Source of the DNA: Synergistaceae bacterium
GTDB lineage: Bacteria; Synergistota; Synergistia; Synergistales; Aminobacteriaceae
Assembly (NCBI GenBank): GCA_017445405.1
Contig: JAFSUD010000068.1
Location: 1-64,000, forward strand
DNA: 64,000 bases
Direction of reading: 5' to 3'
Made by a program: the position numbers and the translations under genes. How positions within the stretch are numbered: position 1 is the stretch's first letter; each line of letters opens with the position of its first letter. Below are positions 1,435 to 34,384 of this stretch, one piece after another. A model generated the notes under the pieces. The model made no database searches. It had not been told where the DNA came from and worked only from the letters and a program-made list of their open reading frames with translations.

Positions 1435-2887
1435 TGCTGTTCAGCTCGTACGGGTTTATATTCCTGTTTGCGCCCATTGCTATTTATGCGTACCTGATGA
1501 TAGGTAATTTTACGGGGGGGGGGTAGCTGCTAATTTCTGTCTGTTGATTGCAAGCCTCGTGTTCTACGCTTTCCAGAGTGTTCAGTGCCTCCCAATACTT
1601 ATCGCAAGCATCGCAGTAAATTACGCAGCAGGTGTGTACATCATCAATCTCAGGGCAGCAGGGCGTGAGAAGTTGTCTCGCTCTGTGATGATTCTCGGGC
1701 TGGTGTTCAATGTTTTGCTGCTGGGGGTCTTCAAGTATGCGGACTTCATCATCGAGACTATAAACCAGTTCGGAGCGGCTTTGCCTCTTCTTCATGTGAT
1801 ACTGCCTCCTGGGATATCATTTTTCACGATTACGGAGATGATATATCTTGTTGATGCCTATCAAGGCGTAACGAAGGACAAGAATCTAGTGAACTACTCA
1901 GTGTTCGTGTCATTTTTCCCGCATATATTAGCCGGGCCGATTTTGTGGCACAAGCCGATTGTGAGGCAGCTCAATGATCCGGAGACTCACCGTGTGAACT
2001 GGGAAAATATCGCGAGGGGATTGACATTGTTCATTCTGGGGATGTCTAAGAAGGTGCTTATTGCCGACCAGCTTTCACATTACGTCGGCGATTGCTTCTC
2101 TCTTCCTGAAAGCCTTACTGTGATTGACGGATTGGCTGCGGCGTTGTTCTACACAGTGCAGCTGTATTTCGACTTCTCGGGCTATAGTGATATGGCTGTG
2201 GGTTTAGGCTGGATGATGAATATTGACCTGCCCGTGAACTTCAACTCTCCATACAAGGCTTACGGAATGATAGATTACTGGAACAGGTGGCATATGTCAT
2301 TGACGCACGCGATAACGAACTATATTTACACGCCAATCTTGATGTTGTTCAAGGAGATAACGTTCGGGAAGGCGATGTTTGCGACGTTTGCGGCGATGGT
2401 GATTGCTGGAGTGTGGCACGGTGCGGGATGGACGTTCGTAATCTTCGGAGCACTGCACGGGCTAGGACTGGTTCTGAATCATGTGTGGAAGAAATATAAG
2501 CTGTGGATGCCGAGACCGCTGGGGTATGTGCTGATGTGGGGGCTGATTCTGACGGCGAATGTGTTTTTCAGGGCGGAGAGCGTGAGTGATGCGGTGAAGG
2601 TGCTTTACGCGATTACAGGAGGGAACGGGTTAATGTGGCCTCAGAAGATTGCGGACTTGTTTATGCGCTTAGGAGTTGCTTTGCCTGTGTGGACTGCCTC
2701 TATTCCCAACAAGAAATTATTGCTTGTTGCTGTGGGGCTGATATTCTTTGCGCCGAATGCCGTTGCTCTGGTCAAGTCCAAGTTCACGAAGCCTAATGTG
2801 TACTGGCTGGCGTATGCAGTTTTTCTGTTCATGATGGCGTTTTCCGAACTGAGAGAGCCTGCGGAATTTGTATACTTCAGATTCTAA
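1434..2887 (+). CDS. MBOAT family O-acyltransferase, frame broken at a G10 tract
   Basis: Multi-pass membrane-bound O-acyltransferase, expected to move an acyl group across the membrane to a surface glycan or lipid. Translation from the ATG at 1434 (MLFSSYGFIFLFAPIAIYAY) matches the family N-terminus but hits TAG right after a run of ten G (1514-1523). The rest of the protein continues in another frame from about 1520 and is intact to 2887 (447 residues counted from an internal TTG at 1544). The family's conserved His region is present as GVWHGAGWTFVIFGALHG. Eight or eleven G would restore one continuous protein, so this is either a phase-variable gene in the OFF state, a sequencing error in the homopolymer, or a fresh pseudogene. 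An SGNH-like partner follows after 15 bases. Confidence 0.85.
1514..1523 (+). repeat. G10 homopolymer tract inside the MBOAT gene
   Basis: Ten consecutive G, about 27 codons into the acyltransferase gene. In the form seen here it puts TAG in frame. Its flanks (TAGGTAATT upstream, TAG and TAATTT downstream) closely resemble those of the second G10 tract at 31878-31887. Confidence 0.95.
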
Positions 2888-25480: not shown

Positions 25481-26398
25481 GTGTACAGATTTATTGACTT
25501 GTTCGCAGGGATCGGAGGCATAAGGCTGGCGTTCGAGAGTGCGGGGTGTAAGTGCGTGTTCTCGTCGGAGATTGATGAATATGCGTGCAGGACGTACGAG
25601 GCGAATTTTCACGAGCGGCCTTCAGGAGACATCACGAAGATAGATGCTGAAGAAATACCTGATTTCGAGATACTGACTGCAGGTTTCCCGTGCCAGCCCT
25701 TCAGCATCATAGGCAGACTTGAAGGTTTTGATGACATTGCGCGGGGAACTATGTTCTTCGAGATATTGAGGATACTGCGTGAACGAAAGCCTGTTGCGTT
25801 CATGCTTGAGAACGTCAAGAATCTTGCTGCTCACGACAAGGGCAGAACTTACAGCGTCATCATGAACTCTCTTGAAAAATTAGGCTACTGTGTTTATGTC
25901 TGTGTCATGAATGCTCTCGATTACGGCCTGCCTCAGAAACGTGAAAGAATAATTATCGCAGGGTTCAGGGAGAACGTGATATTTACCTTCCCTGACCCTG
26001 TGCCTGAATCTGAACGCAGAACATTAGCCGACATTCTGGAGAGCAGGACAGACAAGAGATATTACGTCAGCGACGAGATAAGGGCTTCGAGGCTAGCCAG
26101 ACTCAAGGATAAGAATTACCCCAGACCGTACATCTCACATGAGAATGTTGCAGGAAGCGTAACACCTCATTCATGGTCGGCAGCATTGAGGGCAGGAGCA
26201 TCGGCGAATTATATTCTAGTCAATGATGAACGCCGTCCTACAGAGCGAGAATTATTGCGTCTTCAGGGATTTCCTGACAGCTTCAAGGTAGTAGTTCCAT
26301 ATGGCAGACTGAGGCAGCAGTGCGGAAATTCTGTAGCCGTGCCCATGATAAAGGCAGTTGCTGACGAGATGATAAAGGCGTTGAGGCAGATAACATGA
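25481..26398 (+). CDS. DNA (cytosine-5) methyltransferase, HaeII-type partner
   Basis: A 305-residue C5-cytosine methyltransferase starting at GTG. Motif I is DLFAGIGGIRLAF, motif IV with catalytic Cys is GFPCQPFS, motif VI is ENVKNL, motif VIII is QKRERIIIAGF, and motif X is QCGNSVAVPMIKAVA. It overlaps the following endonuclease gene by four bases. A partner of the HaeII family would be expected to methylate RGCGCY. The near-contact with purD and the absence of its own promoter region suggest insertion into or behind the purine operon. Confidence 0.95.
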   Translation: MYRFIDLFAGIGGIRLAFESAGCKCVFSSEIDEYACRTYEANFHERPSGDITKIDAEEIPDFEILTAGFPCQPFSIIGRLEGFDDIARGTMFFEILRILRERKPVAFMLENVKNLAAHDKGRTYSVIMNSLEKLGYCVYVCVMNALDYGLPQKRERIIIAGFRENVIFTFPDPVPESERRTLADILESRTDKRYYVSDEIRASRLARLKDKNYPRPYISHENVAGSVTPHSWSAALRAGASANYILVNDERRPTERELLRLQGFPDSFKVVVPYGRLRQQCGNSVAVPMIKAVADEMIKALRQIT

Positions 26399-27435
26399 AT
26401 ATTGATGAAGCGAAACAGGCATTAATAAAGCTGATAGAGAAATCAAGGCTGCATTTTTACAAGCCGGTGCAGATAGCAGAAATCTTATATCATGACCGTG
26501 TATATCATGATGTAGATTTATCCTTACTGGAAACTTACAGGACTCAGAGCAAGAAATGGCGTGATGATATGACTATGCAGCTTATAGGCAGAGTTTGCAC
26601 GAGCAGTTCACGTTTTCAGGACAATCTTTTTGACGACAACGCGATACCTCCTGCAGTTCTTGAGACATTAGGCACTCTTAACCGCAAAACAGGCGGAAGC
26701 ATTGAGGCATACATTTACAGCCGGTTCATAGGCAGGCATTCACAGCTTAAGCAGGCACTAGACTATTGCAGGAACGCATCAGCAGAAAACTTTGACATAA
26801 AGAAATTCATTGACTCGTTCAGGTATGAGGCAGGACTCAGAAGAAGCCTTGACAAAATTTATGAGATTGTCGTTTACGCTTTGTTCTCAGCTTTGGCGGA
26901 AGTACTTAACTTGCGCATCACAGTTTCCGTTGACGAGACCAAAGGCGGACTTCTTGAGGAGTTCGGGGACTTCGCAGAAAAGGTTATGAGCATAACACCT
27001 GACTTCAGGACTCACAGTGAACCGGCAAAGATATTCCGGGCTGGAGTAACGAACGCCGCAGACAGAGGCATAGATATATACTCCAACTGGGGAGCAGTGA
27101 TTCAGGTCAAGCATCTCAGCCTTGATGATGAACTTGCAGAAGATATTACGTCGAATGTATCAAGCGACAGAGTAATCATAGTTTGCAGGGATGCCGAGAG
27201 AAGGACTATACTTTCACTTCTTACACAGATAGGCTGGAGGAGTCATATACAGAGCATAATCACGGAGAATGATTTAGTGCTGTGGTACGAAAAGGCTTTA
27301 CGCGGAAAGTATTCATCTCTGACAGGAGATAACGTTCTAAAGTGTTTACGCAATGAGATAGCCGGAGAATTTCCATCTGCTGATGATGTACCTGAAGTTC
27401 TGAGAGCAAGACATTACGCCCTATCACGAGAATAA
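26395..27435 (+). CDS. HaeII-family type II restriction endonuclease
   Basis: A 346-residue protein that I recognise as HaeII-like from several blocks: LIEKSRLHFYKPVQIAEILY, SKKWRDDM, GRVCTSSSRFQDNLFD and RRSLDKIYEIVVYALF. A likely PD-(D/E)xK-type core is DRGIDIYSNWGAVIQVKH (Asp, then Gln-Val-Lys). The family cuts RGCGCY. The start overlaps the methyltransferase stop (ATGA). By eye I find no RGCGCY site in the window although GCGC is frequent, which supports this specificity. Upstream genes are purine biosynthesis; downstream is hslV after a 96-base gap. Confidence 0.85.
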   Translation: MNIDEAKQALIKLIEKSRLHFYKPVQIAEILYHDRVYHDVDLSLLETYRTQSKKWRDDMTMQLIGRVCTSSSRFQDNLFDDNAIPPAVLETLGTLNRKTGGSIEAYIYSRFIGRHSQLKQALDYCRNASAENFDIKKFIDSFRYEAGLRRSLDKIYEIVVYALFSALAEVLNLRITVSVDETKGGLLEEFGDFAEKVMSITPDFRTHSEPAKIFRAGVTNAADRGIDIYSNWGAVIQVKHLSLDDELAEDITSNVSSDRVIIVCRDAERRTILSLLTQIGWRSHIQSIITENDLVLWYEKALRGKYSSLTGDNVLKCLRNEIAGEFPSADDVPEVLRARHYALSRE

Positions 27436-31320: not shown

Positions 31321-31350
31321 AGCCGGGTATGAGTGAGTTCACGCCCGGCT
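31321..31350. terminator. hairpin between convergent genes
   Basis: AGCCGGG/CCCGGCT stem with a 16-base loop. It lies between the unknown gene (+) and the end of the specificity gene (-), and overlaps the latter's stop. A short T-rich GATTCTTTG follows on the plus strand. Confidence 0.55.
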
Positions 31351-32425
31351 GATTCTTTGTGCGAAGTGCGAGAGGACGAGGGAGAGCTTCTGTGTCTCGA
31401 GGGAGAGCATGTAGTCGTGCATGAGCTGCCAGTCCGGGAGTCCGGAGTCGTCGATGGGGAGCTGTATCATCTCGTTTCTGAGGCGTTCCTCGCTGCGCTT
31501 GTAGTTGTAGCTGTACTTGCCCCTGACCTTATCGGCTACCGTCGTGATGAACATTCCAGTGTACCTGTCGAGAAATGGAGCATATCCCAGCGTAATATCT
31601 GCTGTCGAGATGAAGTCTTCTGCTTTGTAGACAGAGTAGCCTATTGACCCTTCACCGTTCCTAATGAATGCGATGCAGTTACCTTTCTGCACGAGGCCGT
31701 CTTCAGGTTTCACGAAGTCAAGTACTGCGTTATTGCGGTTAGTTGCGCCGAGATAGGAAATGCCTACGTTGTCGCGTTCGAGGTGATTAGCTCCTTTCGC
31801 TTTACCCATTTTCAGCGTGAACAGCTCGCCTATTCTGAATCTTCTCCACGTTCTGCCCTCGAGACTAGGTAATTCACGGGGGGGGGGTAGTACGTAATTT
31901 ACGCATTATGCGTTCAGTGTACTCATGAATGAGTCTCTGTTCATGATAGCGAATGTATCTCTCCATGAATGCGTAGTCCGGCTCTCCCGAGTCGTCGATG
32001 GGGAGCTGAACAATTAACCCTTTGACTCTTTTGCTTGAGCACATCTGATTGTAGGAGAACTTCCCCATCACGCTATAACCTATAGCAGTTACGACGAATT
32101 GCATATGATATTTGTTCATGACAGAACGTGGAGTTAGAATATTCACTCTCCCGTGAGACACAGCGTAGAACCCGTAGCCGTGAAAAAATGCTTTTCCGAA
32201 CATATCAACACTGATAACGTTACTGCTGTAGAGTCTAGCTCTCTCATCGTAACACTTGATGAATTTGCATATGCCGTTGTTGTTGAAGCCTGCCGACAAC
32301 AAAGGAGCTTCACCGTCCTCGCATTTGTCCGCCTGAATGTCTCCTGATGGCAACGATATAGTGAACAGCTCGCCAAGTGTAAAACGTCCCCACCTGACTC
32401 CCTCGAGACTCTCCCTCTCATTCAG
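31339..32425 (-). CDS. restriction specificity subunit (HsdS/BcgB-like), split by a C10 tract
   Basis: Two-domain DNA specificity subunit on the minus strand. The first target-recognition domain runs from near 32425 to the tract and begins WGRFTLGELFTI. The second, after the tract, begins WRRFRIGELFTL. Both end in similar conserved helices (DDSGEPDYAFMERYI and DDSGLPDWQLMHDYM). A C10 run (G10 on plus, 31878-31887) lies exactly in the linker; as it stands the first half stops at TGA right after PPP, and the second half is in another frame. Nine or twelve C would fuse them. The first half is in the same frame as the upstream R-M gene and is separated only by its TGA. No ATG is available in that frame, so a CTG at 32425 or reinitiation is needed; an ATG at 32421 is out of frame. 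Confidence 0.85.
31878..31887. repeat. G10/C10 homopolymer tract in the specificity gene
   Basis: Ten G on the plus strand (ten C in the coding sense), placed in the linker between the two recognition domains. The flanks TAGGTAATT...AC before and TAG then TAATTT after match those of the tract at 1514-1523. Confidence 0.95.
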
Positions 32426-34384
32426 TCAAGTAAACGCATCCCCCTCATCCGCAAACAAATACCCTCTCCCGTGAAATATCATGTTCGCCTCAAACGTCAG
32501 ATAATCCCCCACGCTCTCCGCAAAATCCTGCTCGCCAGGCAATTCATCATTGTAGTAGTAGAACGAATGCAGCCACTCGTCCCCAGCCTCTACCGTCGTC
32601 TCTACCATAAACTTCGACGGGTAATCTGTCCTCTCGCCCCGCCAGCAGTCCAGCAGATACTGCCTCCTGTCCTTAGACCTCGAGTCGTCCTCAACAAGCC
32701 CCCGATGCATCTTCACTTCCCAGCCGTCATCCTCAAAGTTGATGAACTTCGACAGCTTATCTTTCGGGTGAGGCTCCCCCGCAGTGAACACCGCAATACA
32801 CGGCACTGTCCCCACTCCGTAGAACGTCTGCTTGTTCAGGCTTATCACTCCCTCTAACGTGTGGTGCTTCAGAATATCTCCCTTGAGCTGCCGGTCGTCC
32901 TTCGTCTTGCCTATCATTGCTGACACAGGAACAATCACTGCTACCCTACCTCCTGCAAGTACGCTCTCCAGAAGGTGATAGATGAAGTTCAGCTCCGAAA
33001 GATTCTGAGTCGCCTTGTTCTTGGCCTGAGAGTACGGCGGATTCATGAAGCCTACTGTGATGCCGTGAAGCTGGAGTTTGTCAGGGGAACTCGCGAAGAA
33101 GTCCTCGCACGTCAGGTTGCTCTGGCCGTCCCCGCGAAGAATCATGTTCGTAGTGGCTATCGCGAACATGTCGTTGCGTATCTCCGTCCCGAATATCTGG
33201 TGCTCCTTGATGTGCCTGCGCTGTGATTCTGACTCTGCCTCCTGAAGCATCCTGTGCATTCCCGCAATCAGGAAGCCTCCAGTCCCGCAGCATGGGTCAA
33301 ATATCACGTCGTCAGGCCTCAAGTTCACGAGGTCGCAGAAAAGTTCCGTGATGTGTCTCGGCGTAAGCACTACCCCTAACGTCTGGCCGTCCCCTCCTGA
33401 ATACCTCACGAACTCGCCGTAAAACCTCCCCAAATAGTCCTCGCTCGACGCATTAAGCTCTATCGCGTTGTAGATGTTCTTGCTCAGGTAGTCCGCAAAG
33501 TACTTCAGCGGAGTCATTTCGAGGTCATTGCGTTTCTTGTTGAGAACCGGCCTGTCCTTGATGATGGTGAACTGATTCAGAACTTTATCGCGCTTCACTT
33601 CCGGCCTAACTTTCGCGCGGGTCATTGCGTTTTCAAGATACCTGTAGAGTATCTCGCCGTCAGTGTTGCCCTCGACAGTATCTCCCTTCAGAAGGTCAAG
33701 GCTGAAACCGTATCTGCTCTCACTGAGCGCAAGGAGTATAGCTGAGACAACAAGGGGCTTTTCTGTGTCGCTGAGGCTGCCGTAATTCCGGAGGTGCTCG
33801 TGGAGAGTCCGCGACTTGGTGATGAGTTCGTCAAGCTCCAGCTCTTCAGGGGATTCCTCCTCAAGCACGGAATGGCGGTAATACTTCTCTATGTTGTCAG
33901 GGGAAAAGTTCTCGAACGTCTCGATCTCCGCAAGCTCCTTCACACAGTCCTTCCCCACAAACACAGGCCTCAATGTGTGGTGCCTGGCGTCTCCGGCATT
34001 CCCGAACGCAAATATCTTCGTGAACGTCCCGTGCGCAAGTATCTTCCGTGCGTACCACACTGCACCGTTGACCGCGTAATCCCGAGTTGCCTCGACGCTC
34101 TGAGAGATGCCCCCGTCCTTCCCGTGCAGACATAATTTGTCCCTGTCTGCCTTGTCCTCAATCACCAGCACATAATCATTTACCACCGCGATAAAGTCAG
34201 GTTTTCCGGCTTCTCCTGTCTGACTCTTTGAGGCTGTGCGTAATGCCTCCTGCAGTCCCGCAATTTCGGTGTGCTGATATTCCGCGTTAATTCCTGCCTC
34301 CCTCAGCAGGTCATGTATATAGATGTCAAAGTTGGATTCGTTCATGGCCGCAAAAAATGACCCCGCAATTTCTCGCGAGGCCAT
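32426..34384 (-). CDS. BcgI-like fused restriction-modification subunit (RM, N6-adenine)
   Basis: A 652-residue protein combining an N-terminal PD-(D/E)xK nuclease domain (Pro-Asp in GKPDFIAVVND, Glu-Asp-Lys in VLVIEDKAD), a helical region, and an N6-adenine methyltransferase of the HsdM type (motif I FDPCCGTGGFLIAG, motif IV NPPYS, plus VVLTPRHITELF). The layout and size match the A subunit of BcgI-like type IIB systems, which cut on both sides of the site with a separate specificity subunit. The start may be 34384 or the internal ATG at 34345 (MNESNFDIYIHDLL); neither has a strong ribosome site. The specificity gene follows directly in the same frame after the TGA. Confidence 0.88.
   Translation of the reverse strand: MASREIAGSFFAAMNESNFDIYIHDLLREAGINAEYQHTEIAGLQEALRTASKSQTGEAGKPDFIAVVNDYVLVIEDKADRDKLCLHGKDGGISQSVEATRDYAVNGAVWYARKILAHGTFTKIFAFGNAGDARHHTLRPVFVGKDCVKELAEIETFENFSPDNIEKYYRHSVLEEESPEELELDELITKSRTLHEHLRNYGSLSDTEKPLVVSAILLALSESRYGFSLDLLKGDTVEGNTDGEILYRYLENAMTRAKVRPEVKRDKVLNQFTIIKDRPVLNKKRNDLEMTPLKYFADYLSKNIYNAIELNASSEDYLGRFYGEFVRYSGGDGQTLGVVLTPRHITELFCDLVNLRPDDVIFDPCCGTGGFLIAGMHRMLQEAESESQRRHIKEHQIFGTEIRNDMFAIATTNMILRGDGQSNLTCEDFFASSPDKLQLHGITVGFMNPPYSQAKNKATQNLSELNFIYHLLESVLAGGRVAVIVPVSAMIGKTKDDRQLKGDILKHHTLEGVISLNKQTFYGVGTVPCIAVFTAGEPHPKDKLSKFINFEDDGWEVKMHRGLVEDDSRSKDRRQYLLDCWRGERTDYPSKFMVETTVEAGDEWLHSFYYYNDELPGEQDFAESVGDYLTFEANMIFHGRGYLFADEGDAFT

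Follow-up and report, generated by a model that had tools for sequence, protein, structure and literature searches.

Can a run of ten cytosines between the two halves of a specificity gene determine how many sequences a restriction enzyme reads? The question is raised by a locus within the window, the whole stretch of 64,000 nucleotides analysed here, which lies on contig 33 of a metagenome-assembled genome, 2.53 Mb in size and 88% complete, of an uncultured gut Synergistota bacterium. An RM gene is followed by two half-genes of a specificity (S) subunit, each encoding a target recognition domain (TRD), and the C10 run lies between them. We think it highly likely that the locus encodes a phase-variable BcgI-like (Type IIB/IIG) system, in which slippage in the C tract decides whether the last TRD half joins S.

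The enzyme and its divided specificity gene

The RM subunit has the composition of those in BcgI-like systems, in which a nuclease motif and a gamma N6-adenine methyltransferase are found in a chain of about 640 aa. An N-terminal PD-(D/E)XK nuclease, with the motif PDF...IEDK (E76/K78), is fused to a gamma N6-adenine methyltransferase containing NPPY (Pfam N6_Mtase, E 1e-31), and both the nuclease ExK and the methylase NPPY are invariant across RM orthologs. Residues 20-645 match the PADLOC Type IIG profile REase_MTase_IIG (PDLC03602, 637 positions) with E 2e-179; the PADLOC profiles matched have the lengths of BcgI A and B, and Type II specificity subunits were also called by PADLOC. Met14 (MNESNFDI) is likely to be the true start of RM. 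A Foldseek search with the RM model matched HsdM, the RM chain of BsaXI, BpuSI and DrdV. Type I systems have a separate HsdM and an ATP-dependent HsdR, and no HsdR is present among the window ORFs adjoining the locus. The initial annotation had called the system BcgI-like; this assignment, made from sequence and predicted structure, is supported by the PADLOC profiles, the conserved ExK, and the AlphaFold/Foldseek matches to BsaXI. Elsewhere in the window a gene for a cytosine-5 DNA methyltransferase is followed by that of a 346-aa protein (25481-27435), which is probably its Type II restriction partner, and hslV, hslU and codY are found consecutively in this Synergistota genome (27532-30353; CodY identified by Pfam, 1.6e-35).

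The C10 run marks the exact boundary between two Methylase_S half-domains, which occupy different frames (Table 1). In the C10 allele TRD1 closes with ...RKLRTTPPP* at the TGA at 31874-31876. When the number of cytosines is a multiple of three (9 or 12) the TRD1 frame continues into RELPSLEGRTWRRFRIGELF, and the halves are fused. The two Methylase_S halves that a two-TRD S of the BcgI type would need are both there, but they share a reading frame only when the tract has 9 or 12 cytosines. The homopolymer is placed between the TRDs so that it cuts S to one TRD, as in NgoAV. It had been proposed in the initial annotation that the tract splits S between its recognition domains and that nine or twelve C would fuse them, and this is borne out by the frames and by the Pfam matches to Methylase_S in both halves; the parallel N-terminal phrases noted there (SLEGVRWGRFTLGELF and SLEGRTWRRFRIGELF) are real. 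Two G10 runs are observed in the 64-kb window, against 0.02 expected from shuffled sequence; the second, in an MBOAT gene, was not mentioned in the initial annotation.

Table 1. Positions in the window of the RM-S locus, its tract, and the boxes and second G run discussed in the text
Feature	Position	Strand	Remarks
RM gene	32426-34384	-	followed by TRD1, C10 and TRD2 in gene order
M stop TGA with in-frame CTG, the sole candidate TRD1 start	32423-32428	-	same in-frame TGA CTG in 9/9 tract-type loci
TRD1 and dimerisation helix, first half of S	31877-32425	-	Pfam Methylase_S E 1e-9; PADLOC Specificity_II
C10 tract, proposed slippage switch	31878-31887	-	G10 on + strand; in frame at 9 or 12
TRD2, second half of S	31339-31878	-	Pfam Methylase_S E 4e-8; at C10 not in the frame of TRD1
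Box GTAATTCAC	31869-31877	+	directly 5' of the G run on the G strand; PWM score 9.5
Second box copy GTAATTTAC	31894-31902	+	genus-wide motif
Second G10 in window	1514-1523	+	in MBOAT O-acyltransferase gene, 1434-2887; frame broken at G10; sister contingency locus
Box GGTAATTTTAC	1503-1513	+	beside the second G10, in MBOAT gene

The joint between RM and S is unusual in that TRD1 of the window has no ATG, GTG or TTG start, a point that the initial annotation had not mentioned. The sequence AC(T/C) TGA CTG, with TRD1 in frame, is found at the joint in all nine tract-type loci (the window included), and a standard start codon is absent from TRD1 in these loci except for an internal TTG in two. S might be expressed by read-through of a leaky UGA-C, or by initiation at CUG. 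A prfB-like +1 frameshift at TTGAC was considered and rejected, since that frame stops immediately. The BcgI-like loci of H. pylori have an RM stop codon and no usable S start (PMC3936762). Five other relatives (L074, L077, L078, L083 and L064, from Selenomonadaceae, Kapaibacterium and one member of the genus) have a run of A9-A10 at the RM-TRD1 joint, where the frame is fused in 5/5; slippage on this run would yield RM alone. Either the TGA CTG joint or the A9-A10 run could tune RM:S towards 2:1, the ratio of subunits in BcgI (PMC3874165). The lack of a standard start codon in TRD1 counts against the phase-variable reading. In L056, L058, L059, L029 and L065 a run of T8-T10 lies a few bases upstream of the RM start codon; this run, T6 in the window, is possibly a second switch.

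The tract in related loci

The RM gene is present in 14 other genomes of the genus, at 64-88% identity, and one further locus, L069, was found in genome contigs; its M carries an internal stop and was excluded from the alignments. Going by the named records of its sister genomes, which include MAGs from red deer, goat and reindeer and one entered as Fretibacterium sp., the genus is one of ruminant-gut Synergistota. Either two or three TRDs are found downstream of RM in the relatives. The C tract occurs in nine loci, and is always at the last TRD junction, with lengths of C10 in the window genome (G000), C13 (G021), C15 (G002), C11 (G028), C19 (G030), C9 (G033 and G009), C10 (G005, in frame) and C8 (L069). 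Thus between species the tract ranges from C8 to C19 and alters the frame, as in a contingency locus. The assembled tract is in the truncating frame in eight of the nine, where six would be expected; this is not significant, and was counted against the phase-variable reading. The in-frame tract of G005 provides a natural full-length S. In the three-TRD loci (G021, G028, G030, G033 and G009) the product cut at the tract keeps two TRDs. In G017 and G025 the RM and both TRDs form one fused chain (RM-TRD-TRD), and in G031 and G035 TRD1 and TRD2 are in frame without a tract. An origin of the tract in an inserted element is not favoured; the S linkers of tract-bearing and tractless loci are near-equal in length (HDYIEY...CVKW, 26 aa, and HEYTER...RTW, 27 aa). 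Endomicrobium, of another phylum, has a BcgI-like locus that is otherwise decayed but carries a G10 run where TRD1 meets TRD2 (L084:7633-7642).

The TRDs themselves are exchanged. The family to which the window TRD2 belongs is found in the first position in G021, G031, G033 and L069, and in the second in G009, G017 and G028. M of G009 and that of G030 are 95% alike, and their TRD1 halves have 99-100% nucleotide identity. The two loci nevertheless differ in TRD2, TRD3 and tract length (C9 and C19), and a stretch of about 100-200 bp around the tract is 80-84% alike.

In the assemblies almost every TRD past the tract is out of frame, yet dN/dS for these TRDs is 0.08-0.20; for the window TRD2 the values against relatives are 0.08-0.09. 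The sequence beyond the tract is therefore under purifying selection at the level of protein, even where it is out of frame, and so these TRDs must be translated in some cells. An AlphaFold2 model of the G005 S (pLDDT 79.6) contains two TRDs with a helix after each. The PPP encoded by the tract follows the helix at 151-178, in the least confident stretch of the linker ahead of TRD2 at 193, and a Foldseek search with the model matched HsdS structures and the S chain of BsaXI.

G runs and a flanking box

The tract is one of many in its genome. There are 29 G/C runs of at least 9 in the window genome, numbering 5, 12, 5, 5, 1 and 1 for lengths from 9 to 14. The mode is at 10, unlike the distribution expected by chance, where the counts would drop about fourfold with each extra base. 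Ten of the 29 host ORFs are in frame at the assembled tract, which is near one third, and the hosts are mostly genes of surface glycans (glycosyltransferases, pyruvyl transferases, UDP-sugar dehydrogenase, epimerase and MBOAT). Most genomes of the genus have frequent G10 runs; in most of the order's other genera they are rarer. Campylobacter shows the same pattern, its poly-G loci likewise including a Type IIG gene (PMC4889913). No dedicated study of phase variation in Synergistetes came up in a literature search. The switching by tract length put forward in the initial annotation is strongly supported on comparative grounds, by the fixed position of the tract, its lengths of 8-19, the purifying selection past it and the tract-rich genome.

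A common motif, GtaAATTTAC, is found in the 5' flanks (on the G strand) of the 29 tracts; its EM log-likelihood is 84.8, where controls that were shuffled or matched in composition reached 23-45. When 43 tracts of three sister genomes were fitted independently, the result was cAGTAATTA (65.9, with controls at 24-50), and the motif trained on the window genome recognized held-out flanks with an AUC of 0.79 (p 9e-11). This fitted motif and held-out test replaced the exact pattern TAAWTTAC N0-4 G8, which was too strict (9/41 genomes, with about one match in the reversed control). The box is usually 0-7 bases 5' of the G run, and occurs in unrelated genes, in both gene orientations and in all reading frames; it would therefore act at the level of DNA. 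None of 22 tracts from three other genera has a box scoring above 6, and no motif beyond Y-A was found in the 3' flank of the tracts. A dispersed uptake-like repeat was rejected as an explanation, GTAAWTTAC (22 sites) not being enriched genome-wide over base composition by a rough estimate. Tentatively, and we would not call it probable, the box might be a cis element read by a host factor, through which hypermutable G tracts are created, maintained or tuned, with the S switch as one client. Should the box govern how mutable the tracts are, we would know of no earlier cis signal dedicated to contingency loci.

What slippage would do to specificity

Slipped-strand mispairing would add or remove cytosines in the tract, and we infer that this occurs within the population. 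A tract of 9 or 12 C would give a two-TRD S, which may assemble with two RM chains to read an asymmetric bipartite site, while at 10 or 11 C TRD1 and the dimerisation helix alone would be made; two of the three phases would give half-S and one the full S. Judged against the sister species, where the length of the run differs, a change of tract length probably alters which site the enzyme marks and cuts. We put at about even the chances that half-S forms a dimer with a palindromic half-site specificity, as opposed to being silent. Dimerisation of half-S into a palindromic reader is found in NgoAV, EcoR124I delta50 and EcoDXXI deltaC (PMC3874165), and a specificity carried by half-S, as suggested in the initial annotation, would have its precedents in NgoAV, EcoDXXI deltaC, HaeIV and a one-TRD S of L. 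plantarum. The last is a gene of 177 aa adjoining a 51%-identical RM on a plasmid (L197:4404-4937).

A plain on/off switch, in which half-S can neither recruit RM nor bind DNA and full S is the sole active form, is a substantial possibility, if somewhat short of an even one. cj0031, a Type IIG enzyme, is switched on and off by its tract (PMC4889913), and the loss of S would be safe where S is common to nuclease and methylase. The TRD1 half-S of JHP1422 in H. pylori J99 did not work alone (PMC3936762). Yet half-S homodimers do function in NgoAV, EcoR124I delta50 and EcoDXXI deltaC, single-TRD systems of the HaeIV type exist, the L. plantarum one-TRD S lies naturally beside a related RM, and an off state is unlikely in the three-TRD relatives (G021, G028, G030, G033 and G009), whose cut form keeps two TRDs. 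Either switch would alter nuclease and methylase together, because both share S.

That the tract and its collars serve chiefly as crossover points for swapping TRD cassettes, and not as a translational switch, seems to us rather improbable. TRD families do move between positions, and G009 and G030 differ by the replacement of TRD2 and TRD3, with partly similar sequence round the tract; but the same box and tract are found at 28 other, unrelated sites where there is nothing to exchange, and the length variation and its effects on frame follow the pattern of contingency loci. The two roles are compatible. Programmed transcriptional or translational slippage, making both forms from one allele with no mutation of DNA, is less probable again. 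In its favour is the A9-A10 run at the M-TRD1 joint of five relatives, which is in the fused frame in all and would give RM alone on slippage; against it, a C tract whose length differs among species, from 8 to 19 and in different phases, fits DNA slippage and not a fixed programmed site. We give hardly any credence to a decaying pseudogene, or a tract length due to assembly error. A TGA between M and S, the missing standard start, a frame broken at C10 and a metagenome-assembled genome might suggest it, yet dN/dS is 0.08-0.2 past the tract, the catalytic residues are conserved, nine loci have the same tract position and nine genomes the same TGA CTG junction.

The phase-variable system that we favour is of a kind already known, from NgoAV, JHP1364/1365 (G13/14 in S) and cj0031. 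In NgoAV, a Type I system of Neisseria gonorrhoeae, a poly-G run truncates S to its N-terminal TRD, and truncated and full S differ in specificity (PMC6789123, PMC3874165); NgoAV has separate HsdM and HsdR, in contrast to the fusion of nuclease and M without adjacent HsdR here. The Campylobacter jejuni cj0031 shares the fused nuclease-methylase with a G9/G10 tract, and belongs to a repertoire of 12-29 poly-G tracts that, as here, are mostly in glycan genes; it is a single chain turned on or off, whereas the choice in the window would be between one and two TRDs (PMC4889913). The BcgI-like Type IIB loci HP1471/HP1472 and JHP1364/JHP1365 of H. pylori have the same RM and S layout. JHP1364/1365 has a homopolymeric G repeat (13/14) in S, whose place relative to the TRDs the text read does not give and which the authors took as loss of full S, not as half-site switching; unlike in the window genus, no three-TRD form or flanking box of these loci is described (PMC3936762). 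The H. pylori Type I HsdS JHP1422 resembles five of our relatives in having three consecutive TRDs, with no homopolymer between TRD2 and TRD3 described (PMC3936762). BcgI is formed as 2RM + S1-S2, AloI is fused, and HaeIV has one TRD and a symmetric site (PMC3874165). The two phases of the window system would resemble HaeIV (half) and BcgI (full), although none of these three is described in that paper as switching forms.

What is new is that the tract is kept at the TRD joint genus-wide despite the exchange of TRDs, together with a BcgI-like system in three-TRD form, the setting within a contingency repertoire of Synergistota, and the box. Phase-variable specificity subunits allow one clone to have several restriction and methylation identities, with consequences for phage defence, gene exchange and epigenetic regulation. 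The proposed switch would place this outside the well-studied pathogens, in a gut genus of Synergistota and in a BcgI-like enzyme whose nuclease and methylase would switch together. Since one locus is present in the genus in one-or-two-TRD, two-or-three-TRD and locked-fused versions, the effect of an extra TRD is directly testable.
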